The notes beneath the pieces were generated by a model. That model worked only from the letters and a program-made list of their open reading frames with translations. It made no database searches and was not told the origin of the DNA. The position numbers and the translations under genes were made by a program. Below are positions 1,058 through 18,730 of a stretch of DNA of 64,000 nucleotides, one piece after another (the stretch's first letter is position 1; each line of letters begins with the position of its first letter). Source of the DNA: Planctomycetota bacterium (GTDB taxonomy: Bacteria > Planctomycetota > UBA1135 > GCA-002686595); contig JAPLOF010000054.1 in assembly GCA_026692665.1 (NCBI GenBank), forward strand, positions 106,735 to 170,734, in the 5' to 3' direction.

Positions 1058-2461
1058 TTGCCCCGGATTTCGCCGGGCATCCGGACCCGGTCGCCCCCCA
1101 GTCCATTCGCCTCGCCGCCGCCCCACCCACACGACGACTTGGAACCGCAGAAACTCTCGAGCCTCGACGCGACGCTCCTCGTCGTCGGCGGCATCGTCGG
1201 TGTCGGGATCTTCTACAACCCCTCGCGGATCGCGGCCGCGGTGCCGGATCCGGGGTGGTACCTCGCGCTGTGGGTCTTCGGCGCGATCGTCGCGGTGCAC
1301 GCGGCGCTCGTCTTCGCCGAGCTCGGCGCGGCGTTCCCGAAGGCCGGCGGCTGGTACGTCTTCCTGCGCGAGGCGTTCGGCCCCTTCCCGGCCTTCCTGT
1401 TCGCCTTCGTCGTGCTGGGCGTCGTCGCCACGGGCGCCAGCGCCGTCATGATGCAGATCTGCGTCCAGAACCTCGCCGGGCTCGTGCCGGGGGTCGGCCC
1501 GCCGGACACCGTCTCCGGCCGTGTCGCGGGCGCCGGGATCCTCGTCGCCGTGACGGCGCTCGCCCTGCTCGGCGTGAAGGCCGGCGCCCTCCTCCAGAAT
1601 GCCTGCACGCTGGTGAAGCTCGCCGCGATCGCGGCACTCGCCGCCGGCGCCTGGCTCGTGTTCCGCCCGGGGGAGGTCGTCCTGGCCCCTCCGCCGCCGA
1701 TCCCGGAGGGCGGGCTCGCGGCCGGCGCGATTCGGGCGCTGCTGCCCATCTTCTTCGCGTACGGGGGCTGGCAGATGGTGTGCTATGTCGCGCCGCAGGT
1801 GCGAGACCCCGCCCGCACCCTGCCGCGTGCCATCCTGATCGGCGTCGCGATCGTCACGGCCGCCTACCTGGCGATCAACGTGGGCTACCTGCGCGTCGTC
1901 GGACTCGGCGGCCTGGCCGCCGACCCGTCGTTCGCCGGCGAGGTGGCGCGCCGGACGCTCGGGTCCACGGGCGGCGAGATCCTGCGCGCCGCCATGGGCA
2001 TTTCGGCTCTCGGCGTGTGCGTGGTCACGATCCTGACGAGCCCCTGGCTCTTCGTCGCGATGGCGAAGGAAGGCCTCTTCTTCGAGCGTTTCGGGCGTCT
2101 GCACCCCCGGACCGGCGCGCCCGTGGCGGCGCTCGTCGTCCAACTCGTCCTCGCGCTCGCCTACTGGATCTGGGGCGGCGCGGAGCTCCTGGTCGACTCG
2201 GTCGTGTTCGTCGAGTGGATCTTCCACGGGCTCGTCGCCGTCGCGCTGCTGCGGCTCCGCGCGCGCCCCGGCATCCTCTGGCCCTTCCGCTCGCGATTCG
2301 GTGCCTGGGCGGCCTGCGTCTACCTCGCGACGGCGTTCGCGGTCGTGGCGGGCAATCTGGCCCAGGCCAACCTGCGCGCCGTGGCGATCGGCGGATCGGT
2401 CCTGGCTCTGGGGGCACTCGCCTACCGTCCCTGGCGGGCACTGGTCGCGGCGGACCGCTGA
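1058..2461 (+). CDS. APC-superfamily amino acid permease
   Basis: Multi-TM protein beginning LSSLDATLLVVGGIVGVGIFYNPSRIA. Real start may be the TTG at 1139. Confidence 0.85.
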   Translation: MPRISPGIRTRSPPSPFASPPPHPHDDLEPQKLSSLDATLLVVGGIVGVGIFYNPSRIAAAVPDPGWYLALWVFGAIVAVHAALVFAELGAAFPKAGGWYVFLREAFGPFPAFLFAFVVLGVVATGASAVMMQICVQNLAGLVPGVGPPDTVSGRVAGAGILVAVTALALLGVKAGALLQNACTLVKLAAIAALAAGAWLVFRPGEVVLAPPPPIPEGGLAAGAIRALLPIFFAYGGWQMVCYVAPQVRDPARTLPRAILIGVAIVTAAYLAINVGYLRVVGLGGLAADPSFAGEVARRTLGSTGGEILRAAMGISALGVCVVTILTSPWLFVAMAKEGLFFERFGRLHPRTGAPVAALVVQLVLALAYWIWGGAELLVDSVVFVEWIFHGLVAVALLRLRARPGILWPFRSRFGAWAACVYLATAFAVVAGNLAQANLRAVAIGGSVLALGALAYRPWRALVAADR

Positions 2462-3090: not shown

Positions 3091-3390
3091 ATGGCCATCC
3101 GCCCGGCCTCCCCCCTCTGCTCGATCGATCACGGCTCGGCCGTGCTCGCGGGCCCGGGCGTCGAAGACCCGTTCCCAGTTCGCTGCATGCCGCGTGCAGG
3201 CAGCGAATGGGTGCGCACGGTGCTGACTCAAGCTCGCAACGCACTGGCTCTGCCGATGCGTGACGAACCTGAGTCGGTGCCGCCAAGTCCGCACGCGAGC
3301 CGCGCGCTCGCGTCTGGTCGCCGTTCGTATCTCCCCCAACTCGGCGCGCGTCCGGCAGACGGACGACGCGGCCTGAGGAAGTTTTTCTGA
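3091..3390 (+). CDS. Possible short ORF (99 aa) ending in a TGATG overlap with kamA
   Basis: ORF stop TGA at 3388-3390 shares its A with the kamA ATG at 3390; no recognisable domain; may simply be 5' leader. Confidence 0.2.
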   Translation: MAIRPASPLCSIDHGSAVLAGPGVEDPFPVRCMPRAGSEWVRTVLTQARNALALPMRDEPESVPPSPHASRALASGRRSYLPQLGARPADGRRGLRKFF

Positions 3391-4988
3391 TGCAACCTAC
3401 CGCTCCCGCGGCCGCCCCCTCGGCCGTCGAGTCGCAGCGTTCCTCTTCCCTCCCCCCGGTCGGCCAGCTCGATGCTGGCAGGCCTCTCTCCGGACGCGAA
3501 CGGTTCTTCCCGGAAGCGACCGATGCCCAGTGGAACGACTGGCGTTGGCAGTTCCGGAACCGCGTCACGACCGTGGACGAACTCGTGAAGCTCGTGCCGA
3601 AGCTCGCGCCCCAGGCCGAGATGCAGCGCGAGATCCTGCGCGACTTCCGGATGGGGATCCCGCCCTACTACATGGCGCTGATCGATCCCGACGACCTCGA
3701 GGATCCGATCCTGAAGCACGCGGCGCCGCTGCACGGCGAGTACGCGTTCCGCGACGTCGGCGAGGAGGACCCGCTCGGCGAGGAGCAGTACTCGCCGGTC
3801 CCGGGCATCACGCACCGCTACCCGGATCGCGTGCTGATGGTGATCAGCAACTCCTGCGCGATCTACTGCCGCTACTGCACGCGCAAGCGGATCATGTACG
3901 AGGACGCCGTCCCCGACGTCGAGATCGACCGCATGGTCGACTACATCGCGCGGACGCCGGCCGTCCGCGACGTGATCGTGTCGGGCGGCGACCCGCTCAC
4001 GTACGGGACGAAGAAGCTCGAGAGCATCCTGGCCAAGCTGCGCGCGGTGCCGCACCTCGAGATCATCCGGATCGGCACCCGGGTGCCGGTTTCGCTGCCC
4101 CAGCGCGTCGACGACGAGCTCGTCGAGATGCTCCAGAAGTACCACCCGCTCTGGATCAACGTGCACTTCAACCACCCGCGCGAGCTGACGCCGGAGGCCG
4201 CGGCGGCCTGCGACAAGCTGTCGCGCGCCGGGATCCCGCTGAACAACCAGTCGGTGCTCTTGAAGGGCATCAACGACGACGTCGGGATCATGCGCCAGCT
4301 CGTGACGGGCCTCATGAAGATCCGCGTGCGCCCCTACTACCTGTACCAGTGCGACCCCGTGCGCGGCGCGGAGCACTTCCGCACCCCGATCTCGAAGGGC
4401 ATCGAGATCATCGAGGGCCTGCGCGGCCACGTTTCCGGCCTCGCGATCCCGACGTACGTCATCGACGGTCCGGGCGGTGGCGGCAAGATCCCGGTGCAGC
4501 CGCAGTACCTGCTGAACTACGACCCGCTGCGCAAGAAGGCGCTCCTGCGCAACTTCCAGAACCGCGTGTTCGAGTACAGCGAGCCGGACGCCGCGCAAGC
4601 GCATTCGGGCGAGCTGCGCCCGATGCGCCCGTCGCAGGCGGTCCCGAACGCGAACGGCGCGGGGCACACCGACGGCAAGAAGACCTCGAACGGCAGCGCG
4701 CCCGCGAACGGCAACGGGAACGGCAACGGGAACGGTCACGCGACCCCGAACGGCAACGGCACGGCCAAGAAGACGCGCGTCCGCGCCGACGGGCAACCGG
4801 TCGTCGGGAAGAGCGGCTGGGTCCACCGTGGGCACTCGCGCGAGGAGCGCCTGCAGAACGCAGCCGGCGACGGGACGCGCAACGCGGCCGAGAAGCGCTC
4901 GACGGCGACTCCGCCGCCGGCGCTCGACGGGGCGCCGGCGACGGCTCGTCCGGCCGCGCCGCGCACCCGCAACGCTCCCGGTACGTGA
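3390..4988 (+). CDS. kamA: KamA-family radical SAM protein (lysine 2,3-aminomutase-like) with low-complexity C-terminal extension
   Basis: CxxxCxxC radical SAM motif in NSCAIYCRYCTRKR; downstream VSGGDPL, HFNHPRELT, PYYLYQCD and PTYVIDGPGGGGKIPV blocks typical of KamA; SD-like gaggaag upstream. Confidence 0.9.
   Translation: MQPTAPAAAPSAVESQRSSSLPPVGQLDAGRPLSGRERFFPEATDAQWNDWRWQFRNRVTTVDELVKLVPKLAPQAEMQREILRDFRMGIPPYYMALIDPDDLEDPILKHAAPLHGEYAFRDVGEEDPLGEEQYSPVPGITHRYPDRVLMVISNSCAIYCRYCTRKRIMYEDAVPDVEIDRMVDYIARTPAVRDVIVSGGDPLTYGTKKLESILAKLRAVPHLEIIRIGTRVPVSLPQRVDDELVEMLQKYHPLWINVHFNHPRELTPEAAAACDKLSRAGIPLNNQSVLLKGINDDVGIMRQLVTGLMKIRVRPYYLYQCDPVRGAEHFRTPISKGIEIIEGLRGHVSGLAIPTYVIDGPGGGGKIPVQPQYLLNYDPLRKKALLRNFQNRVFEYSEPDAAQAHSGELRPMRPSQAVPNANGAGHTDGKKTSNGSAPANGNGNGNGNGHATPNGNGTAKKTRVRADGQPVVGKSGWVHRGHSREERLQNAAGDGTRNAAEKRSTATPPPALDGAPATARPAAPRTRNAPGT
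4705..4736 (+). repeat. Short tandem AACGGS repeat encoding (Asn-Gly)n
   Basis: aacggcaacgggaacggcaacgggaacgg read directly; encodes NGNGNGNGNG within the KamA C-terminal tail. Confidence 0.8.
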
Positions 4989-4998
4989 CGGTCCGCCC

Positions 4999-5994
4999 GT
5001 GCGCATCGGCATCGCGTTCGACCTGAAGTCGGACCAGACGGCACGCGCGGGCGGCCCCGACGACCTGCTCGAGGAGTACGACTCCGAGGAGACGGTCGAG
5101 GCGCTGGCCGCCGCGCTGCGTGAGCGCGGCCACGCGCCCCTGCTCCTCGGCGGAGGCCGGGGCTTCGTGGAGCGCGTCCTCGCGAACCCGCCCGATCTCG
5201 TCTTCACCATCGCGGAAGGCTCCGGGAGCCGCTCGCGGGAAGCGCACGTGCCGGCCGTGTGCGAGATGCTCCGCATCCCGTGCACGCACTCCGATCCGCT
5301 CACCCTGGCGGTGACGCTGGACAAGGCGGCCGCGAAGAAGCTCGTGGCGGCCGACGGCGTCGCGACGCCGCGCTTCACGGTGGTCGAGGACGAGGATTCC
5401 GCCGCGCGGCTCGAATTCGAGCTGCCCGCGATCGTGAAGCCGAACCAGGAAGGTTCGAGCATGGGCGTGCGCCTGACGTCCCGCGTCCGGACGCTCGAGG
5501 AGCTGCGCCGCGAAACCCTGCGCGTCGTGCGCGACTACGGCGAGCCCGCGCTCGTCGAGGAGTACGTCTCGGGGACCGAGATGACGATCGGGATCCTGGG
5601 CACCGGGAAGGACGCGCGGGTGATCGGCGCGATGGAGATCGCGCCGCGGATCGCCAAACCCGAGGAGTTCGTCTACTCGCTCGAGGTCAAGCGCGACTGG
5701 GAGCGCCAGGTCGAGTACCACGTGCCGCCGCGCGTGCCGCCCGCGACGCTGCGTGCCGCGGAACACTGCGCCCTCGCGGCCTACCGCGCGCTCGGTTGTC
5801 GCGACATCGCGCGCGTGGACGTGCGCCTCGATGCACGAGGGACGCCCAAGTTCCTCGAGGCAAACCCCCTGCCGGGCATGAACCCGCGCACGGGCGACCT
5901 GTGCATCCTGAGCACCCGCAGCGGTCTCGGCTACGTCGATCTCGTGGACCGCATCGTCGTGAGCGCGCTCTCGCGGCAAGCGCGCCGCACATGA
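4999..5994 (+). CDS. D-Ala-D-Ala ligase-like ATP-grasp protein (first of tandem pair)
   Basis: GTG start 10 nt after kamA; IVKPNQEGSSMGV, LVEEYVSGTEMTIGILG and FLEANPLPGMNP motifs of DdlA/B-like ATP-grasp enzymes. Confidence 0.8.
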   Translation: MRIGIAFDLKSDQTARAGGPDDLLEEYDSEETVEALAAALRERGHAPLLLGGGRGFVERVLANPPDLVFTIAEGSGSRSREAHVPAVCEMLRIPCTHSDPLTLAVTLDKAAAKKLVAADGVATPRFTVVEDEDSAARLEFELPAIVKPNQEGSSMGVRLTSRVRTLEELRRETLRVVRDYGEPALVEEYVSGTEMTIGILGTGKDARVIGAMEIAPRIAKPEEFVYSLEVKRDWERQVEYHVPPRVPPATLRAAEHCALAAYRALGCRDIARVDVRLDARGTPKFLEANPLPGMNPRTGDLCILSTRSGLGYVDLVDRIVVSALSRQARRT

Positions 5995-7016
5995 GCCTGC
6001 GGATCGCGCTGCTCGAAACCCGCGACGAAGGTCTCGCGGGAGGTGACGATCGCGACGCCATCGCCGTGCGCGCGGCGGAAGGAGCGGCCCTCGCGCTCGA
6101 GCGCGCCTGCCGCGCCAACGGCTGGAGCACCGTGCGCGTCGAGGCGCGCGCGGACGCCCCCGACGCCACGCTCGCCGAACTCGCGCGCGCGGAGGTCGAC
6201 GTCGTCTTCCAGCTCGTCGAGTCGCTGCGCGGCGAAGCGCGTTTCGAGGCGGCGGCCGCCTGGCTGCTCGAGTGGGCGCGCATCCCCTACACCGGCTCGG
6301 GACCGGTCGCGATCACGCTGGCGCTCGAGAAGCCGATTGCGCGGGCAGTCCTCCAGTCCCGTGGCGTCCCCATCCCGGAGGGCTTCGTGCTGGAGCACGC
6401 CGAGGCCGCGATCCCGATCTCGCTCGCAGGACGACGCTGGATCGTGAAGCCCGCGCGCGAGGACGCGAGCCACGGCATCGACGCCGGGAGCGTCGTCGAC
6501 GACGAATCGAGCCTGCGCGCGCGCGCCCAACACGTCCTCCGGACCTTCCGGCAACCCGCTCTCGTCGAGGAGTACGTGGACGGCCGCGAGTTCAACGTGG
6601 CCCTGCTCGGCTCCGGTCCGACGGCCGAGGTCCTGCCGTTGGGCGAGATCGACTACTCGCGCCTCGACCCGTCGCACCCGGCTGTCCTGACCTACGCCGC
6701 GAAGTGGGACGAGGCCTCCGTCGAGTACCATGCGACCCCGTCGATCGGCGCTCGCCCGATGGCGCGTGAGCTCGAGGAACGCATCCGCGCGACTGCACGT
6801 GCGGCGTATGCGGCGCTCGGCCTCGCGGGCTACGGTCGGGTGGACCTGCGCGTCTCCGCGCGCGGGGAGCCGTTCGTCATCGACGTGAACCCGAACCCCG
6901 ACCTCTCGCCCGACGCCGGCTTCCAGAAAGCGGCGGCGCGCGCCGGTCTCGACCATGCCCACACCGTCCGAAGGATCGTCGACGACGCGCTCAGGCGCGC
7001 AGGCGCGCTCGCGTGA
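5991..7016 (+). CDS. D-Ala-D-Ala ligase-like ATP-grasp protein (second of tandem pair)
   Basis: ATGA overlap with previous gene; WIVKPAREDASHGID, LVEEYVDGREFNVALLG and VIDVNPNPDLSPDAGF motifs. Confidence 0.8.
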   Translation: MSLRIALLETRDEGLAGGDDRDAIAVRAAEGAALALERACRANGWSTVRVEARADAPDATLAELARAEVDVVFQLVESLRGEARFEAAAAWLLEWARIPYTGSGPVAITLALEKPIARAVLQSRGVPIPEGFVLEHAEAAIPISLAGRRWIVKPAREDASHGIDAGSVVDDESSLRARAQHVLRTFRQPALVEEYVDGREFNVALLGSGPTAEVLPLGEIDYSRLDPSHPAVLTYAAKWDEASVEYHATPSIGARPMARELEERIRATARAAYAALGLAGYGRVDLRVSARGEPFVIDVNPNPDLSPDAGFQKAAARAGLDHAHTVRRIVDDALRRAGALA

Positions 7017-7494
7017 GCCGCGCGCGGGCGTGCGCCTGCGCGATCTCGCCAGCGCCGACCGCGCGCCGATCGAGGCGCTGCTGCGCGCGACGAACGCGTT
7101 CACGGACGCCGAGGTGCTCGTCGCGCTCGAGCTCGTCGACGAGCCGCGCGAGAGCGGCTACCGATTCGTCGTCGCCGAAGTCGATGGACAGGTCGCCGGC
7201 TACGCCTGCTTCGGCGCGACGCCCTGCACGGTCGGCACCTACGACCTCTACTGGATCGCGGTCGATCCGGCGCGGCAGAACCTCGGCCTCGGCCGCGCGC
7301 TGCTCGACGCCGTCGAGAGCGCCGTGCGCGCCGAAGGCGGCCGCCTGCTCGTGATCGAGACCGCCTCGAAGCCCGAATACGCCGCGACGCGCGCCTTCTA
7401 CGAGCGCTGCGGTCTCGAACTGGCTGCGCGCATCGCGGACTTCTACGCGCGCGGCGACGACAAGCTCGTCTACTGCCGGAGATACGCCACGTGA
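6955..7494 (+). CDS. GNAT-family N-acetyltransferase
   Basis: YWIAVDPARQNLGLGRALLDAVE...GGRLLVIETASKPEYAATRAFYERCGLE is a GNAT core. Start uncertain: ATG 6955 overlaps the ligase, GTG 7030 is an alternative. Confidence 0.8.
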   Translation: MPTPSEGSSTTRSGAQARSREPRAGVRLRDLASADRAPIEALLRATNAFTDAEVLVALELVDEPRESGYRFVVAEVDGQVAGYACFGATPCTVGTYDLYWIAVDPARQNLGLGRALLDAVESAVRAEGGRLLVIETASKPEYAATRAFYERCGLELAARIADFYARGDDKLVYCRRYAT

Positions 7495-8048
7495 CGCCCC
7501 CCGAGACGACCGACAAGAAGTCCGCCGTGCACGTCGAGAACCTCGAGACCGCTCGGTTCGAGTGCGTGTTCCCGACCTGCGGCGGCGTGTGCTGCGCGAA
7601 CGGCCGGCCGCCGGTCGAGGAGGCGGAGTACGCGCGCATCCAGGAGAACCTCCCGAAGTTCCTGCCTCACCTCCGCCCGGAAGCGCGCGCGAAGATCGAG
7701 AAGGACGGCTTCGTGACGAAGCGCAAGAAGGAGGGCCTGAACGCGCTCGCCGTGTCGAAGGGCTGGTGCGTGTTCGCCAACGAGGGCTGCGTGCTGCACA
7801 AGGTCGGCGCGACCGAGGGCGACCGCTGGAAGTACAAGCCCTGGCGCTGCATCGCGTTCCCGCTCGAGCGCTCGAAGACCGGCAAGTGGCACGTACGCCA
7901 GTGGAAGCTGAAGGGCGAGGCCTGGGATCTCTTCTGCCTGAACCCGGAGGAGTCGCCCAAGAAGCCGACCGACTCGATCGCGGGCGAGATCGACTTCGTG
8001 AAGGAGCTCGAGGGCGGCCGCGAGAGCTGGCGGAAGCCCCGGGCCTGA
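7491..8048 (+). CDS. Cysteine-cluster protein (YkgJ/DUF3109-like)
   Basis: GTGA overlap with the GNAT gene; CVFPTCGGVCCANGRPPV...CVFANEGCVLH...WRCIAFPL...CLNP cysteine pattern. Confidence 0.6.
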   Translation: MTPPETTDKKSAVHVENLETARFECVFPTCGGVCCANGRPPVEEAEYARIQENLPKFLPHLRPEARAKIEKDGFVTKRKKEGLNALAVSKGWCVFANEGCVLHKVGATEGDRWKYKPWRCIAFPLERSKTGKWHVRQWKLKGEAWDLFCLNPEESPKKPTDSIAGEIDFVKELEGGRESWRKPRA

Positions 8049-10429: not shown

Positions 10430-12304
10430 TCAGATGTTCCCCGTCGCCTTCAACAGGGCGACCGCGACGCCCATCAGGCTCTCGCCGGCGATGAATCCCG
10501 AAGCCACCGGCGTCACGAAGGCGTCCGCCAGCTTCCGCCAGTTGCGGCGCACGATCTCCGCAATCGCGCCGCCCAGGAACATCGCGATCCCGTTGCTGCC
10601 CGGCACGACCATCGCGATGCCTAGCCCTGAGGGCGAGGGCACGAACGGCTTCGCGCGCTTCGGCGCGAACTTCTCCAGCAGCGCCAGCGCGATGCCGAGC
10701 GCGGCCCCGATCGCGATGAACTGCCGCGCCAGCGGATCGAGCGCGCCGACGCCGTTCGCGAAGGCCTTCGACACGCCGGCCCACACGAGGCACGACGGCG
10801 CGGGCCAGTCCGCTCCGCCCAGCACGGTGACGTCGGGGATCAGCAGGTTGAACGCCGGCACGATCAGCGCCGCGCCGACCACGACGCCGAAGAGCTGCGC
10901 GAAGAACTGCGCGCGCGGGTTCGCGCCCAGGAGCCAGCCGGTCTTCAGCGTGGTGAGCAGATCCGCCGCGTGCAGGCCGATCCCGCCGGTCACGTTCGCG
11001 CTCATGATGTTGCCCGAGAGGTTCCCGGGCGTGATCACGCCGTAGACGAGCTGCGTGACGGGCCCCAGCGCTTTCGTCGGCGTGACGTCCGTGTCCCCCG
11101 TGACGCGCGCGGCGACGAAGCCCATCACGATCGCGAGCGGCACGGCGATGCAGCCGGCCCACACCGGGATCTGGAACATCACGGCCATCAGCGCGACGAC
11201 CACGGGGCCGAGCACGATGAACCCGGCCGGGAACCACCAGCCCGGGCACTCGATCGCGTCCATCGGATCCTCGACCGTCTTCTTCCGGCCGAAGAGGCCG
11301 GCGAGGCCGGAGAACGAGCGCGCCACGCTGCGCCAGTCGAGCGCGAACGACGTGAGCCCCGACGCGACGAGCAGTGCCGCGCCCGGCCACACCGTCCACT
11401 GCACGATGGCCTTGTAGCTGATCTCCGCGATGCGGCCGTCCGCGTGGAGTTGCGGCGCGAGCACGCCGTACGTCAGGAGGCTTCCGAGCAGGAGCGACCA
11501 GGCCGTGCGGAAGCTCATCAAGGCGCCCGCGCCGACGAGCACGACCTCGGTCTTGATCGCCAGCGTCCACTTCGCCGCCGTCTCGCCCGCGATCGTGATC
11601 GGCACCGGGATCGTGCCGGGCACGTTGAACGGCATCCAGGCGACCTTGGCCTCGCGGAACCAGGTGAGGAGGGCTGCGAATCCGGCCGCGATGCCGAGCG
11701 CCTTGGCCTGGCTCGACCCGCTCGGGGCTGTCGAGTCCGCGATCGTTCGCCCCGCCGACTGCTGGTTCTCCGGCGGCGGCGTCGCATGGATGACGCGCAA
11801 CGTCTCCGCCGTCGCCGTGCCCGTCGGGAACACGAGCCCCTCGCGGTTGATCAGCTGTCGCTTGATCGGGATGGCGCAGAACACGCCCAGCGCCGCGATC
11901 GCCGCGAACCAGGCGATCATGTGCAGCGTCGGCGGCGCGACGAACGGGATCATGAGCAATGCGCCGAACGCGGCCATGTTCCCGCCGCCCGTCATGTAGC
12001 CCGCGCCCGAGCTCACGGTGATCAGCGCGTTGTTCTCGAGCAGGCCCAGCGGACGCTTCGCGAGCCCGATCGCAGACAGCCCGCGGAAGAGCGCGTAGGC
12101 CAGGATCGCCGCCGTGATCGTCACGCCCATCGACCAGCCCGTCTTGAAGAAGACGTACAGGTTCGAGATGCACATGACGCCGCCGAGCAGCATCCCGACG
12201 ATCACGGCCCGCACCGTGAGTTGCGTCGCACCGGGGCGGTACGTCTCGGCGAGCCAGAGGGCCTCGGGGTCGTCGGATCGCACGCTCTTCTGTTGGTCGG
12301 GCAT
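10430..12304 (-). CDS. OPT-family oligopeptide transporter
   Basis: 624 aa, many TM segments; LTVRAVIVGMLLGGVMCISNLYVFFKTGWSMG and FPTGTATAETLR are typical of OPT proteins. Confidence 0.85.
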   Translation of the reverse strand: MPDQQKSVRSDDPEALWLAETYRPGATQLTVRAVIVGMLLGGVMCISNLYVFFKTGWSMGVTITAAILAYALFRGLSAIGLAKRPLGLLENNALITVSSGAGYMTGGGNMAAFGALLMIPFVAPPTLHMIAWFAAIAALGVFCAIPIKRQLINREGLVFPTGTATAETLRVIHATPPPENQQSAGRTIADSTAPSGSSQAKALGIAAGFAALLTWFREAKVAWMPFNVPGTIPVPITIAGETAAKWTLAIKTEVVLVGAGALMSFRTAWSLLLGSLLTYGVLAPQLHADGRIAEISYKAIVQWTVWPGAALLVASGLTSFALDWRSVARSFSGLAGLFGRKKTVEDPMDAIECPGWWFPAGFIVLGPVVVALMAVMFQIPVWAGCIAVPLAIVMGFVAARVTGDTDVTPTKALGPVTQLVYGVITPGNLSGNIMSANVTGGIGLHAADLLTTLKTGWLLGANPRAQFFAQLFGVVVGAALIVPAFNLLIPDVTVLGGADWPAPSCLVWAGVSKAFANGVGALDPLARQFIAIGAALGIALALLEKFAPKRAKPFVPSPSGLGIAMVVPGSNGIAMFLGGAIAEIVRRNWRKLADAFVTPVASGFIAGESLMGVAVALLKATGNI

Positions 12305-12377
12305 GGTCGGTCGCCTCCATTCCGGCGAGGCGCCGATGGTAGGTCGGCGCGCTCGCCCGGCTACGGCCTTTCCGGCA

Positions 12378-13583
12378 TCAAGTCCGCCGGAACGTCTCCG
12401 CGTCCAACGAGGGCTCGCGGTGCGAAGCGAGGCCCAGCGCGAGGCCCAGCGCGAGGAACGTGGCCAGCAGCGACGACCCGCCCGTCGAGAAGAGCGGCAG
12501 CGTCAGGCCCGTCAGCGGGATGAGCCCCAGGTTCACGCCGCAGTGGATGAACAAGTGGGACGCGAACAGGATCCCGACGCCCGAGACCACGAGCCGCGAG
12601 AACCGGTCGCGCAGTCCCGACGCGCTGCCGAACAGCGACAGGACGAGCAGTCCGTACAAGGCCAGGATCACGCACGTGCCGATCCAGCCCGCCTCCTCGG
12701 CCACGACGGCGAAGATCGAGTCGCAATCCCGTTCGGGGAGCCAGGCGACCTCGTTCGCGACGCCGGATCCGAGCCCCTCGCCGCCGATGCCGCCGTTCCC
12801 GATCGCGACGCGCGCGTGGTAGGTGTGGAAGGCCGAGCTGTTGCGCTCGGCGATCAACTCGGGCGCGCTCCAACCGCGCGTCCACGTGTCGATGCGCTGC
12901 AGCTGGTAGTCACGGATACCGATCTCGAAGTGCCACATGCACGTGCCGAGCAGCAGCGCGCCCAGCAGGAACCCGAGGATCAGGCGACCGCTCGCGCCCG
13001 CGACGTAGAGCATGCCCAGCGTGATCGGCACGATCGTGAGCGAGGTGCCCAGGTCGGGCTGCAGCATCACGAGCCCCATCGGCAGGAGCGCCATCGCGAT
13101 CGGCATCCCCCACTCGCGCAGGCTCTTCAAGCGCAGGTGATCGAGCGCCGCGGCGAGGCCGAGGATCACGCCGACCTTCGCCAGCTCGGACGGCTGCAGG
13201 TCGAAGGGGCCCAGGTCGATCCAGCGGCGGGAACCGTTGCGCGTGTCACCGACGACGAACACGAGCACGAGGAGGGCGATCGTGATGCCCCAGGCCGCGA
13301 GGGCATTGCGCCGCAGCCACCGCGGGCGCGCCGCGAGCCCGAGGAAGAACGCCGGCGCGGCCACGAGCAACTTCTGGACGTGATCGACGAACCGGACGTC
13401 GGCCCGGCCGTAGGTCTCGTCCGCCGTGCTCATGGCCGAGACGAAAGCGAGTCCGATGGACAGGAGCAGGGCGGCGAGCAGGACGACGTGCCAGTCGAGA
13501 TTCGCCCAGCGCACTCCGCGCAGCGAAACGACGCGGTCGAGCCACGGCTTGCGCTCGCCCTGTCGGACCGAGTTGTCGCTCAC
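12378..13583 (-). CDS. rodA: Rod-shape-determining protein RodA (SEDS family)
   Basis: GTG start; SRRWIDLGPFDLQPSELAKV, LQPDLGTSLTIVPI, FSTGGSSLLA motifs; located in the mre cluster. Confidence 0.9.
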   Translation of the reverse strand: MSDNSVRQGERKPWLDRVVSLRGVRWANLDWHVVLLAALLLSIGLAFVSAMSTADETYGRADVRFVDHVQKLLVAAPAFFLGLAARPRWLRRNALAAWGITIALLVLVFVVGDTRNGSRRWIDLGPFDLQPSELAKVGVILGLAAALDHLRLKSLREWGMPIAMALLPMGLVMLQPDLGTSLTIVPITLGMLYVAGASGRLILGFLLGALLLGTCMWHFEIGIRDYQLQRIDTWTRGWSAPELIAERNSSAFHTYHARVAIGNGGIGGEGLGSGVANEVAWLPERDCDSIFAVVAEEAGWIGTCVILALYGLLVLSLFGSASGLRDRFSRLVVSGVGILFASHLFIHCGVNLGLIPLTGLTLPLFSTGGSSLLATFLALGLALGLASHREPSLDAETFRRT

Positions 13584-13644
13584 GTCGCGTCCTCCGCGCG
13601 GCGGTTCGTCGCGCTGCACGCCAGGAGATCGCGGTCCTGCTGTT

Positions 13645-16600
13645 TCACTGTGCACCTTTCCGCGCGACGAATTCGCGCACGGCATCCGTCTGGAGCAACT
13701 GCGCCGCGACGTGCACGGCCGTGCGGCTCGCCGTCTCGGTCAGGTTGTGCAGGTAGACGACGACGACGGCGACCGGCTTCTCGGCCGGGAACCAGCCCGC
13801 CACCCAGGTGTGCTTGCGGGACTTGCCGGCCGCGCCGGCGGCGCGATCTTCGTCGGGCATGCCTGGGACCTCGTGGATCTTGCCGATGTCCGCGCTGCCC
13901 GTCTTGCACGCGAACGTGAAGCCCAGCGTGCCGGCGTCCAGGCCCTTGCCGTGGCCTGAACCGCCCGGCTCCTCGACGACGGCGCGCATCGCGGCTCGCA
14001 CGAACTCGAGGCTCTGGTTCGAGATCCCGAGAGGCCTCGACGCGCCCGCTACGGGGACTCCGCCGATCGCGCGCACGACCCGCACCTCGGGCAGCACGCC
14101 GGTCGCGAGACCGGCCGTCGCTCGCGCGACCTGGAGCGGGCTCGCCCACAGGAGGCCCAGCCCGTTCGGGAAACGCAACAAGTCGAAGCGCGATTGGAGG
14201 CGCTTCAGCATCCCCGCCTCGTCGATGTCCGGCGACGCTTTCCAGTCCTCGCGCAATCCACGCCGGCCCTCGCGCGGATCGAAGCGCAGGCCGGTCGGCT
14301 CGCCAAAACCGAACGTGTGGGCGGCCTCCAGCAACTCGCGCGGTTGGAAGCGCAATCCGAGCTGCGCGAAGTATGCGTTGCACGAGACGGCCAGCGCGTG
14401 ATGGAGATCGGATTCGATGTGATGCGAGTTGCAGCGCAGCGTCTCGAACGCGGGTTGATTGCTGGCGTTCAGGCTGCACTCGAAGCGCGTCGCCGGATCG
14501 AAACCAAGGCGATCCAGGGCATAGGCCGCGACGAACGGCTTGAACACCGAGCCGGGCGGATTGAACGTCGGGGTCTGGGCGGTGCGCTCGCGCGGGTGCG
14601 AGCGCTCGTAGCCGCGGCCCGGGACGTTCGCGGCGCCAGGAAGGGTCGGCACCGACGCCGCCGCGAGGATCTCGCCCTCGGGCGTGAGCAGCACGATCGC
14701 GCCCACCGGATTCTCGAACCACGTACGGTCGGTATCGCCCGTGGCGGGCAGGCGCGGATGCGCCAGGACGTCCTGCGCCGCCACCTGGAGGCGTGCGTCG
14801 AGCGTGAGCGCGACATCCTGCCCGTCGATCGCGGGCACGAGCCGCGTGCCCTCGCCGCGCTCCTCGGCGTCGAGGCCCTCGGTCTCGTACATCCCGAACC
14901 GGCCGCGCAACTCGGTGTCGAACCACGATTCGAGCCCGTTGTCGCCGGTCCACTCGTCGGCCCGCGCGAGCCGCGTCGAGAGCTCGCGCAGCTCGCGATC
15001 CTCCTCCTCGCTGCGCAGGAGCCGGTACTGGAGGCTCGCGAGACGACGTTCGTCCTCGGACTGCGCCAGGAGTTCGCGCAGGAGCGGCCGCCGCGTGCCG
15101 CCGATGAGGAGGCCCGCCGCGACGGCTCCGTCCGCGTCGCGCACGCGGGCCACGCGCCGCGTGGTCTCGCGCACGGCGAAACCCGTGTAGCGCTCCGGAT
15201 CGCGCGCGACGAGTTGGACGAGCGCGTAGCCGGGATCGGCCGCGAGACGCGTCGCGCGACTCTGCGCGTCGACGAGGACGAATCGTTCGCGTTGCGCCGC
15301 CCGATCCAGGCGTTCCTCGGCGAGTTGCAGGGGCGGCGGAGGCGCGCCGTCCGAGGGCGCGGCGCCGCGCAGGGCCGAGAGCGTGCGCAGGACGGAGCCG
15401 CTGAAATCGGCTTCGAACGAACGTGCCGCTCGGCGCAGCTCGTCGAGTGCCTCGTCTCCGTCCAGGCCCTTGCGCGAGGCCGAGAGCCGCGTCCAGCGGG
15501 CCGCGATCTCGTCCGCGGTCGGGGATGCGAGCCCGGCGCGCAGTGCCGCCGCCTCGAAGAGCAGTCCGACCGTGCGCCACGGGTCCGGCTCGACCGCCGC
15601 GAGCGCGCGGTAGTCCTCGTCCTGGAAGGGCAGGACGGGGGCGTCGGCCGGCGTCCCTGGCGCGCCACGTGCCGAGCGAAACAAGGAACGCGACTCGTGC
15701 AGGACGGCCAGCGATTCGAGGTCCGTCCACGCGCGGTCGTCCGCGGCGCGAGCGTCGCCCGCGCGCCACAGGCTCGCGAGTCCGTCGAGCAGTCGCTGGG
15801 CTCGCGCGCCCTCGGACTCCCCGAGGTCGGCGCGCGCCAGGAGTCGCGGCAGGAGGAACTCGTCGAGTTCGCGCTCGAAGTCCCCGCGCCGCGTCGCGAT
15901 CCACGACTCCAGGCGTGCCGCATCCCAGCGCAGCGCCCGCGCGATCCAGGCCAGGTCGAACGTGTCGCGCAACGCCTCGGTCGGTACGCGCCCCGGACCG
16001 AAGCCGGTTGCCGTGCGGAACAGATCGTCGGCGGCCTCGTCCTCTTGATCCGCGCGGCGCTGGTCGAACAGCGCGAGGAGCCCGGTCAGCGGGTCCGTCA
16101 CCGCAGTGGATCCTGTGCCCAGGATCTTCTGTTCGTCGAGCATCCCAGCCAGGACGCGCAGGTCGCCGCGGGACTCCTCCGCGCGCCGCGTCAGCGTCGC
16201 GATCACGCTCTCCTGGTTCGTCCCGCGCACGGCGGCGGCAATCGCGCTCCACGGCCGATCGGCTTCGCCGGCCTCGATGCGGCGGCGGGCCGGCCCCGAT
16301 TCGCGGCGCGTGAGCGCGAGGATCTGCGCGACGTAGAAACGCAGATCCGCCGCGCGCCCCGCGCGCGCCGTCGGCTCCGGATCGGCGACCTCGGGGGCCA
16401 GCTCGAGACCGTCCGCGTCGCGCAACGCGTGCCCGAGCGCGAAGGCCTCGATCGAGGCCGGCGAGAGCGACGCGATGCGGCGGCACCACTCCTCCAGCCG
16501 CGGCTCCGTCTCGGCCAGGCCGACCGGCCGCGCCTCGATCGCGGTGCGCGCGTGCGCGGCGAGTCCCAAAGGATGGCCGCGGCGGAAGTCGCGGTAGACG

Positions 16601-16827
16601 AACTCGAGGCTCGCCGCGTCCTCGTCGGCGACCAGCACGCGACCTTCGCGGTCGAGGAAACGGCCGCGGTGGTAGGGCACGACGCGCGAGCTCGTGCGGA
16701 AGCTCGCGGCCTGCGCGGCCCAGACGTCGTGCTCGAGGACCTGGACCTGGAAGAGCCGCGCGGCCAGGACGCCGAGCCCCAGGATCACCACGATGCCGAG
16801 CGGCTGGAGCCGTCGCTGCGCTACCAC
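13645..16827 (-). CDS. mrdA: Penicillin-binding protein 2-like transpeptidase, ~1060 aa
   Basis: Catalytic SxxK (NPPGSVFKPF), SxN (VSCNAYF) and KTG (FACKTGSAD); N-terminal TM; GTG start overlaps mreD stop. The track ORF extends spuriously to 18219. Confidence 0.85.
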   Translation of the reverse strand: MVAQRRLQPLGIVVILGLGVLAARLFQVQVLEHDVWAAQAASFRTSSRVVPYHRGRFLDREGRVLVADEDAASLEFVYRDFRRGHPLGLAAHARTAIEARPVGLAETEPRLEEWCRRIASLSPASIEAFALGHALRDADGLELAPEVADPEPTARAGRAADLRFYVAQILALTRRESGPARRRIEAGEADRPWSAIAAAVRGTNQESVIATLTRRAEESRGDLRVLAGMLDEQKILGTGSTAVTDPLTGLLALFDQRRADQEDEAADDLFRTATGFGPGRVPTEALRDTFDLAWIARALRWDAARLESWIATRRGDFERELDEFLLPRLLARADLGESEGARAQRLLDGLASLWRAGDARAADDRAWTDLESLAVLHESRSLFRSARGAPGTPADAPVLPFQDEDYRALAAVEPDPWRTVGLLFEAAALRAGLASPTADEIAARWTRLSASRKGLDGDEALDELRRAARSFEADFSGSVLRTLSALRGAAPSDGAPPPPLQLAEERLDRAAQRERFVLVDAQSRATRLAADPGYALVQLVARDPERYTGFAVRETTRRVARVRDADGAVAAGLLIGGTRRPLLRELLAQSEDERRLASLQYRLLRSEEEDRELRELSTRLARADEWTGDNGLESWFDTELRGRFGMYETEGLDAEERGEGTRLVPAIDGQDVALTLDARLQVAAQDVLAHPRLPATGDTDRTWFENPVGAIVLLTPEGEILAAASVPTLPGAANVPGRGYERSHPRERTAQTPTFNPPGSVFKPFVAAYALDRLGFDPATRFECSLNASNQPAFETLRCNSHHIESDLHHALAVSCNAYFAQLGLRFQPRELLEAAHTFGFGEPTGLRFDPREGRRGLREDWKASPDIDEAGMLKRLQSRFDLLRFPNGLGLLWASPLQVARATAGLATGVLPEVRVVRAIGGVPVAGASRPLGISNQSLEFVRAAMRAVVEEPGGSGHGKGLDAGTLGFTFACKTGSADIGKIHEVPGMPDEDRAAGAAGKSRKHTWVAGWFPAEKPVAVVVVYLHNLTETASRTAVHVAAQLLQTDAVREFVARKGAQ

Positions 16828-17354
16828 GAGCGGCTCCAGAGCGGGGTGAGCCCGGGCAATCGCGCGAGGAGCGGACCCAGCGCGAACGCCAGGAGTGCGC
16901 TGGCGAGAGCGACGGGCAGTGCCGTCCCGGCCGCCGCGGCGAAGTCGATGGAGTGGTTCACCTCGCGCGCGTCGCGCGCGATGGAGATCCAGGCCTGGAA
17001 CATCCCCGCGGCGATGGCGGTCGCGAGCGTGCGCCCGAGGGGACCGGAGAGCTCGAACGCGCCGCGCACGGCGAGCGCCGCGAGCAGGGCGCCCAGGATG
17101 CCCGTGAAGAGGACGAGCGGAGGCTCTCCGCTCGTCGCCGCGCGCGCGAACGCCGTCAGCAGCGCGAGCAGGGCCAGATCGCCGACCTCGCAACGCGCGA
17201 GCACGACGACGGAGAGCACCAAGGCCGCGTCGGGGACCCACGATCCGGCCGCGTGGCGCGCGAGGATCCCTTGCAGCCCCGCGAGCGACACCGCCCACAC
17301 GAGGAACAGCGTCCAGCCGAGGACGCGCTGGCCCGGGCGGCGTCCGGACTTCAC
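16821..17354 (-). CDS. mreD: MreD-like membrane protein
   Basis: Short multi-TM protein between mreC and PBP2 with overlapping termini; assignment mainly positional. Confidence 0.65.
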   Translation of the reverse strand: MKSGRRPGQRVLGWTLFLVWAVSLAGLQGILARHAAGSWVPDAALVLSVVVLARCEVGDLALLALLTAFARAATSGEPPLVLFTGILGALLAALAVRGAFELSGPLGRTLATAIAAGMFQAWISIARDAREVNHSIDFAAAAGTALPVALASALLAFALGPLLARLPGLTPLWSRSW

Positions 17355-18730
17355 GGCAGTTCCTCCACGACGGGCGACGTCGCGAGGCGAACGCGCAGGC
17401 GCAGAAGGTCCGCGGGATCCTGCGCGGGCAGGAGACGCAGCACGTGGATTCCCGTTCCCGCGGGAACCGTGCACGTGCCGACCCACAGCCCGGCCGGGAC
17501 GCCGCGGTCGCCGGAGGACGTCGCGATCCGGGCCGGCCCGTGCGCCCGCTCCGGAGAACCCGCCGTAGCGACGCCCGCATCCCAAACGAGGAGCACCGCG
17601 TCTCCGTCGAGCCCGATCGATCGCAGACGACCCAGGTGAAGGGGCGCGGCCGCGCCCTCGATCGCGGCGACTCCCGAGAACGACAGCGCGGGGTCTCCGA
17701 GGAGAGCCCCGATCGCGCGGGAACCGTCGACCCGCACGACGCGGCCGAGGAAACGGGCGCCGACGCCCAGCGCTCCCCCGACTTCGACGCGCGCCTCGCG
17801 CGGCAGCACGAGGTGGCGCGTTCGCCGGCGCGGAGTGGAATCGCCCGCCAGCCCCACGCGCGCCGTCGTCCAGCCCGCGTCGTCGTAGGCGTCGTCGGCG
17901 TACAGCGGGCCCGCGGTCGCGAGCTCGGGTCCGCCCACGATCGCCACGGCGGAGAGCCCGTGCGCGTAGTCGAACGCGGTCTCGACCGCGAGGACCGCGC
18001 GACCGCGATCGGAGAGGACGCGCAGCTCCCCGAGCCGGAATCCATCGGCCCGCGCGCGGCGCTCGGCGCGCGGGCCCGTGCCCGCCTCGCGCACGACCAC
18101 GGAACCCGACTGCACCGGCCGGCTCTCGTGGCGCGCGCCGAGCTGCAGGAATCCGGCGCGGCGTGCGCGCGCTTCGACCAGGCCTCCCACGACGAGGCCC
18201 GCGGGCTCGGCCGAGCCATCGACGACGACCGCGCCCACGCGCAAGCTCTCGTCCGTCACGAGCTGGACCACGCCCTCGCCGGCACGCAGCGGGTCGACGT
18301 CGCGCACGCGCCCCACGTAGGTGTTCCCGCACACGACGGGCATGTCCGGCACGACGCCCGCCGCGGGCGGGAACCGCACACGCAGGATGTCCGTGTCGTT
18401 CGGATCGCGCTCGAGCACCTCGGCCACGAGGTAGGCCCGACCGTCGCGCAGCGCCGGATCCTTGGGCAGAGCGGCTTCGATCTGCGCCGAGAGCAGCGCG
18501 CGCGCGGCCTCGCGCTCGGCGGGCAGGGCCTCGTCGGCGTGCGTCAACGCGGCGCGCACCTCGCCGACTCCGAGCCAGCCGAGAGGACGCAGGACCTCGC
18601 GCGCCCAATGCGACGGCGTGAAGACGAAGTCGACCGCACGCTCGACCGGTGGAAACGGACGGAGCGCCAGCGCCGCGAGGACGAACACGCAGGCGAGGAC
18701 GAGAGTCCTCGATCGCAACCACGACAACAC
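17351..18730 (-). CDS. mreC: Rod-shape-determining protein MreC
   Basis: N-terminal TM then GRVRDVDPLRAGEGVVQLVTDESLRVGAVV; positioned between mreB and mreD. Confidence 0.75.
   Translation of the reverse strand: MLSWLRSRTLVLACVFVLAALALRPFPPVERAVDFVFTPSHWAREVLRPLGWLGVGEVRAALTHADEALPAEREAARALLSAQIEAALPKDPALRDGRAYLVAEVLERDPNDTDILRVRFPPAAGVVPDMPVVCGNTYVGRVRDVDPLRAGEGVVQLVTDESLRVGAVVVDGSAEPAGLVVGGLVEARARRAGFLQLGARHESRPVQSGSVVVREAGTGPRAERRARADGFRLGELRVLSDRGRAVLAVETAFDYAHGLSAVAIVGGPELATAGPLYADDAYDDAGWTTARVGLAGDSTPRRRTRHLVLPREARVEVGGALGVGARFLGRVVRVDGSRAIGALLGDPALSFSGVAAIEGAAAPLHLGRLRSIGLDGDAVLLVWDAGVATAGSPERAHGPARIATSSGDRGVPAGLWVGTCTVPAGTGIHVLRLLPAQDPADLLRLRVRLATSPVVEELP

Follow-up and report, generated by a model that had tools for sequence, protein, structure and literature searches.

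A conserved Planctomycetota gene cassette linking a lysine 2,3-aminomutase-like enzyme to two ATP-grasp ligases, with a possible role in beta-lysyl peptide synthesis

Architecture of the cassette

We analyzed a window of 64,000 nucleotides (nt) from an uncultured Planctomycetota bacterium (GenBank assembly GCA_026692665.1, contig JAPLOF010000054.1, positions 106,735 to 170,734), which carries a cassette of five same-strand genes for a lysine 2,3-aminomutase-like enzyme (KamA), two ATP-grasp ligases (AG1 and AG2) with the fold of D-alanine-D-alanine ligase (Ddl), a GNAT acetyltransferase and a cysteine-cluster protein. The gene set recurs across many genomes with its members in physical linkage, and may constitute a small-molecule pathway that leads from lysine through beta-lysine to an acetylated peptide. 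The original prediction had assigned the five families from the letters alone; position and Pfam/NCBIfam matches in the window (Radical_SAM, LAM_C and TIGR00238; Dala_Dala_lig_C twice; Acetyltransf_1; DUF3109) confirm all of them. The genes are as follows:

3390..4988, + strand: KamA, lysine 2,3-aminomutase-like enzyme dependent on radical S-adenosylmethionine (SAM) and pyridoxal phosphate (PLP); 532 amino acids, catalytic part at approximately residues 35-400
4999..5994, + strand: AG1, first Ddl-fold ATP-grasp ligase; GTG start, 331 amino acids, C-terminal end EANPLPGMNPRTGD
5991..7016, + strand: AG2, second Ddl-fold ATP-grasp ligase; 341 amino acids, C-terminal end DVNPNPDLSPDAG
7030..7494, + strand: GNAT N-acetyltransferase; GTG at 7030 is the preferred start
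7491..8048, + strand: Cys-cluster protein of DUF3109 type; 185 amino acids, CX4CX3CC motif, eight invariant cysteines

Of the tight spacing described originally, the 10-nt gap between KamA and AG1 and the 4-nt overlaps of AG1 with AG2 and of the GNAT gene with the Cys-cluster gene are real. The 62-nt overlap between AG2 and GNAT is doubtful, because GNAT homology begins only at around GTG 7030, which places the gene approximately 13 nt after AG2; the ATG at 6955 that the overlap needs is followed by 25 residues resembling read-through, and the overlap is probably a mis-called GNAT start.

KamA carries lysine-type residues

KamA scores 337.7 bits against TIGR00238 (cut-off 199.2), and falls below the cut-offs of the more specific models: 481 bits against TIGR03820 for AblA (cut-off 525.4) and 256.8 bits against the EpmB model (cut-off 369.3), with the glutamate and arginine aminomutase cut-offs likewise missed. 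The LAM_C match covers only positions 1-64 of 127, and the C-terminus is a low-complexity tail without zinc cysteines, such as clostridial lysine 2,3-aminomutase (LAM) carries in its C-terminal region. As judged by alignment to clostridial LAM (2a5h; 365 residues, E=1e-140), the window protein retains the CxxxCxxC motif and the equivalents of Arg134, Asp293, Asp330 and Lys337. We take CxxxCxxC to be the radical SAM motif, Lys337 to be the PLP lysine, and Asp293 and Asp330 to contact the lysine side chain. Among 65 KamA proteins, the Asp293 equivalent is present in 58, and those of Asp330 and Lys337 in all; Gln replaces Asp293 only in seven KamAs of a clade associated with murJ (L105, L106, L110, L111, L113, L114 and L115, our numbers for loci). 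Since the key residues are kept and the AblA, EpmB, glutamate and arginine cut-offs are missed, we class the window protein as a KamA with predicted specificity for lysine, outside all four of these curated families, and the lysine-2,3-aminomutase-like assignment made originally is upheld.

Two ligases with altered substrate pockets

AG1 and AG2 match PF07478 with 109 and 79 bits, and miss every NCBIfam Ddl/Van cut-off among the matches listed. Against NF002378 (cut-off 243) they score 160 and 130 bits, compared with 252.6 bits for the genome's own Ddl, a separate gene on contig 53 that passes one Ddl cut-off. The AlphaFold model of AG1 has a mean confidence score (pLDDT) of 92, and the PDB structures most similar to it are those of Ddl, at approximately 25% identity, which fix the predicted fold, not the substrate.

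We mapped 85 AG1 and 35 AG2 sequences on the Ddl of the host genome. Lys144, Glu187, Arg255, Asp257 and Asn272 are unchanged in all of them, and Glu270 may be Asp in AG2; we take these six to be the catalytic ATP/Mg residues of Ddl. The Ddl substrate residues Glu15, Tyr216 and Ser281 are replaced in both ligases, the alignment at Glu15 being less certain. At the Tyr216 site, most AG1 have Arg, Glu or Gln, and 35/35 AG2 have Trp; at the Gly276 site, most AG1 retain Gly, and AG2 has Asp or Cys. AG1 has in addition an invariant Asp past the loop (Asp300, after the NPLPG motif; alignment A2). Because the ATP/Mg residues are kept while the Ddl pocket residues are replaced, AG1 and AG2 both look active, with pockets unlike that of Ddl and unlike one another, which agrees with the earlier suggestion that the two ligases are distinct. 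They thus share the fold and the ATP/Mg machinery of Ddl/Van ligases, but the replaced substrate residues, the missed cut-offs and the separate Ddl led us to reject a canonical Ddl role. A complete canonical role in Ddl or elongation factor P (EF-P) function, raised with the original prediction as a competing account, is unsupported given that Ddl and the lack of a link to EpmA (see below).

The host genome (G000) contains a second AG1-AG2 pair (57% and 49-52% identical) with no KamA nearby (contig 13:95444-97432, equal to L010:7445-9432), and so does a sister genome (L155:6233-8226). In the sister genome (G240), AG2 is missing from the cassette but present in this second pair. A stand-alone AG2-like ligase adjoins a MazG-like gene on contig 23 of the host (L012:7131-8120); its C-terminal end, EVNASCYLE, suggests that it represents a further Ddl-like subfamily.

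The gene set is conserved and linked

A scan of GTDB genomes for AG1 returned 14 loci, most of them from Planctomycetota. The order KamA-AG1-AG2-GNAT is retained in L015-L024, with the Cys-cluster gene in most of these and varying flanks, and in most of the best 30 loci; many genomes show the same order, at protein identities of 40-80%. This recurrence is not due to chance, and since the order is kept while the flanks change, the conserved unit consists of the cassette genes themselves. Loss of gene order in relatives, named beforehand as evidence that would speak against a pathway, is therefore not what the genomes display.

Co-occurrence was evaluated in 294 Planctomycetota genomes, with thresholds of E<=1e-45 for AG1 (57 genomes) and E<=1e-85 for close KamA (68 genomes). 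Close KamA is present in 55/57 genomes with AG1 and in 13/237 without it (p=2e-44), and the association holds at the family level (30/1/5/56, p=6e-18), both values ignoring kinship; AG1 occurs without close KamA in two genomes, and KamA without AG1 in 13. The two genes lie less than 5 kb apart in 44 of the 57 genomes, with KamA mostly upstream and in about ten genomes downstream, and are both present but separate in 11 further Planctomycetota genomes. In a separate test, KamA was detected in 22/22 AG1 genomes, including those with scattered genes; the scattered-gene genomes searched for GNAT contained no second fixed operon. In a second phylum (that of genome G294, locus L025), AG1 was found at E<=1e-35 in 95/237 genomes, so that AG1 is present in about a fifth of the Planctomycetota genomes sampled and in two fifths of those from the second phylum. 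Cassette conservation with linkage spans 26 families, and neighborhood comparison thus bears out the claim that the gene set is conserved and linked. A plasmid search returned a single weak match, to AG1 only.

Gene fusions usually join consecutive or cooperating steps. KamA and AG1 are encoded in one frame of 817 amino acids in L025, AG2 and GNAT are encoded in one frame in L066, L067 and L068, and other loci of the second phylum encode tandem AG1-type domains within one protein. These single-frame fusions point to linked steps, tying AG1 to KamA and GNAT to AG2. The pairwise distances of KamA, AG1, AG2 and GNAT correlate with r of 0.74-0.84 (best of 500 permutations, 0.18), values that shared descent alone could also yield.

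The acetyltransferase and the cysteine-cluster protein

GNAT matches PF00583 with 55.9 bits and is closest to 2r7h (E=2e-38), which its depositors named 'putative D-alanine N-acetyltransferase of GNAT family', a putative label and not functional proof. It has weak matches to RimI-like and AAC models, and none to the AblB model at E<=0.001.

The predicted Cys-cluster gene is present at 7491-8048, and its assignment can be refined to the DUF3109/CxxCxxCC type (PF11307, 58 bits), the least constant member of the set. The CX4CX3CC motif is found in 10/10 orthologues, with eight invariant cysteines (alignment A1), and an orthologue adjoins the cassette in nine close loci and in L098; the structure model is poor (pLDDT 52). 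In L061, L065 and L069, a CxxCxxCC protein of another subfamily is encoded between KamA and AG1, which suggests that proteins of this type matter to the pathway. The flagellin lysine methyltransferase FliB has eight conserved cysteines, and CX4CX3CC is the motif by which it binds its [4Fe-4S] cluster (PMC8598068). The cassette protein has the same motif and cysteine count but is a DUF3109 protein of 185 amino acids, for which iron-sulphur binding and methylation are predicted at most.

Proposed pathway

Based on these observations, we propose, with a confidence midway between doubt and acceptance, that the cassette is a small-molecule operon that converts lysine via beta-lysine into a soluble acetylated beta-lysyl peptide. 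KamA, as judged by its family and residues, would convert free L-lysine to beta-lysine. AG1, in keeping with its enzyme class, would use ATP to activate a carboxylate as acyl phosphate and form an amide bond, with beta-lysine a probable partner, given that KamA and AG1 co-occur, are linked and, in one locus, are fused. AG2 may form a second amide bond or act in a paired complex with AG1, and GNAT, fused to AG2 in some loci, would acetylate a free amine, either on this compound or on an intermediate, the order and site of this step being presumptive. The expected product is an N-acetylated di- or tripeptide of beta-lysine, small and soluble, with the acceptor and the acetyl position likewise presumptive; it may be retained inside the cell to serve as a protective solute, a store or a cofactor-like compound. 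An iron-sulphur cluster is probably present in the Cys-cluster protein, which might support the radical chemistry of KamA or modify the lysine-derived amine; the latter is a weak analogy to the methylation of lysine by FliB. Originally, the product was guessed to be either a small conjugate or a modified polymer. The former fits better, because no transporter, glycosyltransferase or carrier protein recurs beside the gene set. As a whole, the earlier interpretation is partly supported.

Several observations weigh against this proposal: (i) of the 22 AG1 genomes in which GNAT was sought, half gave no match, AG2 is absent from the cassette of the closest relative, and the Cys-cluster protein is patchily distributed, so that the end product may vary; (ii) the coupling of KamA to AG1, for which a single fusion was found, is no proof that AG1 uses beta-lysine; (iii) a clade of AG1-KamA pairs beside murJ means that not every such pair is lysine-specific; (iv) the S58 peptidases encoded beside some AG1 genes belong to a family that also contains enzymes other than strict beta-aminopeptidases; and (v) no transporter or stress gene that would fix the role recurs beside the cassette.

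The S58 gene follows AG1 in five loci of the second phylum (L101, L107, L112, L116 and L117), with which L108 groups by sequence; apart from the close pair L107/L116, the AG1s of the S58-linked loci are 48-57% identical. S58, the beta-aminopeptidase family, includes DmpA and BapA, which have been used on beta-alanyl peptides (PMC9570944), and its place beside such diverged AG1s speaks for the proposal. Tentatively, and with less confidence than in the operon itself, we suggest that Planctomycetota and one or more other phyla share a widespread, as yet undescribed pathway in which two dedicated Ddl-derived ligases produce acetylated beta-lysyl peptides of a new class; a small iron-sulphur protein resembling FliB possibly modifies the lysine amine, and S58 peptidases would serve turnover.

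The closest parallel among known systems is N-acetylglutaminylglutamine amide (NAGGN), a small acetylated dipeptide for which Ngg performs both the N-acetylation and the peptide bond formation (PMC8070244). Acetylation and ATP-dependent peptide bond formation are likewise combined here, with AG2 and GNAT fused in three loci, but the cassette lacks an asparagine synthase-like gene (AsnO in the NAGGN system) and has KamA and two Ddl-type ligases. No Ngg-type curated model is among the matches listed for AG1, AG2 and GNAT. Non-ribosomal peptide synthesis in which ATP-grasp enzymes use an unusual amino acid is a known kind of system; the gene set itself appears undescribed, in that the literature on KamA or aminomutases with ATP-grasp enzymes yielded no description of the cassette, although an earlier mention is possible. 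The main catalogue of ATP-grasp neighborhoods is reportedly that of Iyer et al. (2009, Mol Biosyst). The pathway would have been hidden by the misleading names of the D-alanine ligase, lysine aminomutase and acetyltransferase models. If the proposal is correct, common environmental bacteria contain a previously unseen beta-amino-acid metabolite and two new peptide ligases for beta-amino acids, and 'lysine aminomutases' with neither an EpmA nor an AblB partner are accounted for.

Alternative explanations

The ligases could instead attach beta-lysine to a macromolecule (a peptidoglycan precursor, a lipid or a protein), with GNAT as a capping enzyme. Both ligases have the Ddl fold, and in the second phylum a related AG1-KamA pair lies beside the lipid II flippase gene murJ; Ddl-type enzymes, however, use small amino acids, no wall, lipid or glycosyl gene recurs in the cassette proper, and rodA/mrdA-like homologues follow it only in L014, L015 and L017. 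The MurJ linkage, moreover, belongs to a side branch whose KamA lacks the Asp293 equivalent and which would act on another substrate. We consider this explanation unlikely. The outline of KamA plus GNAT resembles the AblA/AblB pathway and would suit an osmolyte of the N-epsilon-acetyl-beta-lysine type, with the ligases of side importance; acetyl-lysine compounds are known solutes (PMC4685198, PMC1224877). Such a pathway is likewise unlikely, given that KamA scores below the AblA cut-off, that GNAT matches no AblB model, is missing from many genomes with AG1 and KamA, and is fused in three loci to AG2 and not to KamA, and that two additional ligases are present. The arrangement thus differs from AblA/AblB, as had been supposed.

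The combination of ATP-grasp ligases and an unusual amino acid is typical of secondary metabolism, and a lysine amine is acetylated prior to ligation in aerobactin synthesis (PMC2922099). KamA of L059 has a TetR-type gene as its neighbor, homologues of which are present in L058, L060 and L067. A secreted or antibiotic-like natural product, or a beta-peptide that acts as a signal or binds metal, is nevertheless improbable, as no exporter, resistance or tailoring gene recurs and linked conservation across 26 families is more like primary metabolism. Most remote is the beta-lysylation of EF-P with an ATP-grasp enzyme substituting for EpmA, which has in its favor that KamA is homologous to EpmB, is similarly shortened at the C-terminus, without the LAM multimerization part, and is the sole KamA in the genome. 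The EpmB cut-off is missed (above), and AG1 is tied to KamA yet independent of EpmA: AG1 and above-cut-off EpmA give counts of 10, 47, 41 and 196 in the 294 genomes (odds ratio 1.0, p=1). No EpmA above cut-off was found in the host genome, which is approximately 90% complete, so that a gene could be missed; the best match (TIGR00462, 237 bits) proved to be a full-length lysyl-tRNA synthetase. The main EF-P of the host has HTPGNL where PGK34G is expected and hence no Lys34. On these grounds an EF-P role was rejected, and the cassette differs from EpmA/EpmB, as originally stated.

Neighboring genes and related loci

In the seven loci of the murJ-associated clade, all from the second phylum, AG1-like and KamA-like genes lie beside murJ, and the neighbors in L110 and L113 match the MurJ profile. 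The clade likely has a different substrate, since its KamA has Gln for Asp293, and we set the linkage aside as a clue to the cassette.

Upstream of the cassette, the window contains a further gene:

1058..2461, + strand: APC-family amino acid permease (PF13520, 159 bits), 0.9 kb upstream of KamA

Only L014 (81%) and L017 (52%) have a permease homologue upstream of their cassette, and an association is possible but unproven. A gene at 401-991, farther upstream than the permease, encodes a DUF1579 protein that begins like a lipoprotein; in the sister genome, a 35% homologue precedes the second AG1-AG2 pair by approximately 0.7 kb. Downstream, RodA-like and penicillin-binding-protein-like genes were identified by reading the sequence at 12378-13685 and ~13645-18219 (- strand).

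In L060, a protein with a C-terminal histone-deacetylase domain is encoded between AG1 and KamA (10815-12608, - strand); its N-terminus is acetyltransferase-like by eye and has no Pfam match. In three loci of the second phylum, an unlinked KamA is followed by a CBM9-domain protein (L129:10293-12894, L130:7962-9377 and L131:10045-11589), with a MazG gene also present in L129.

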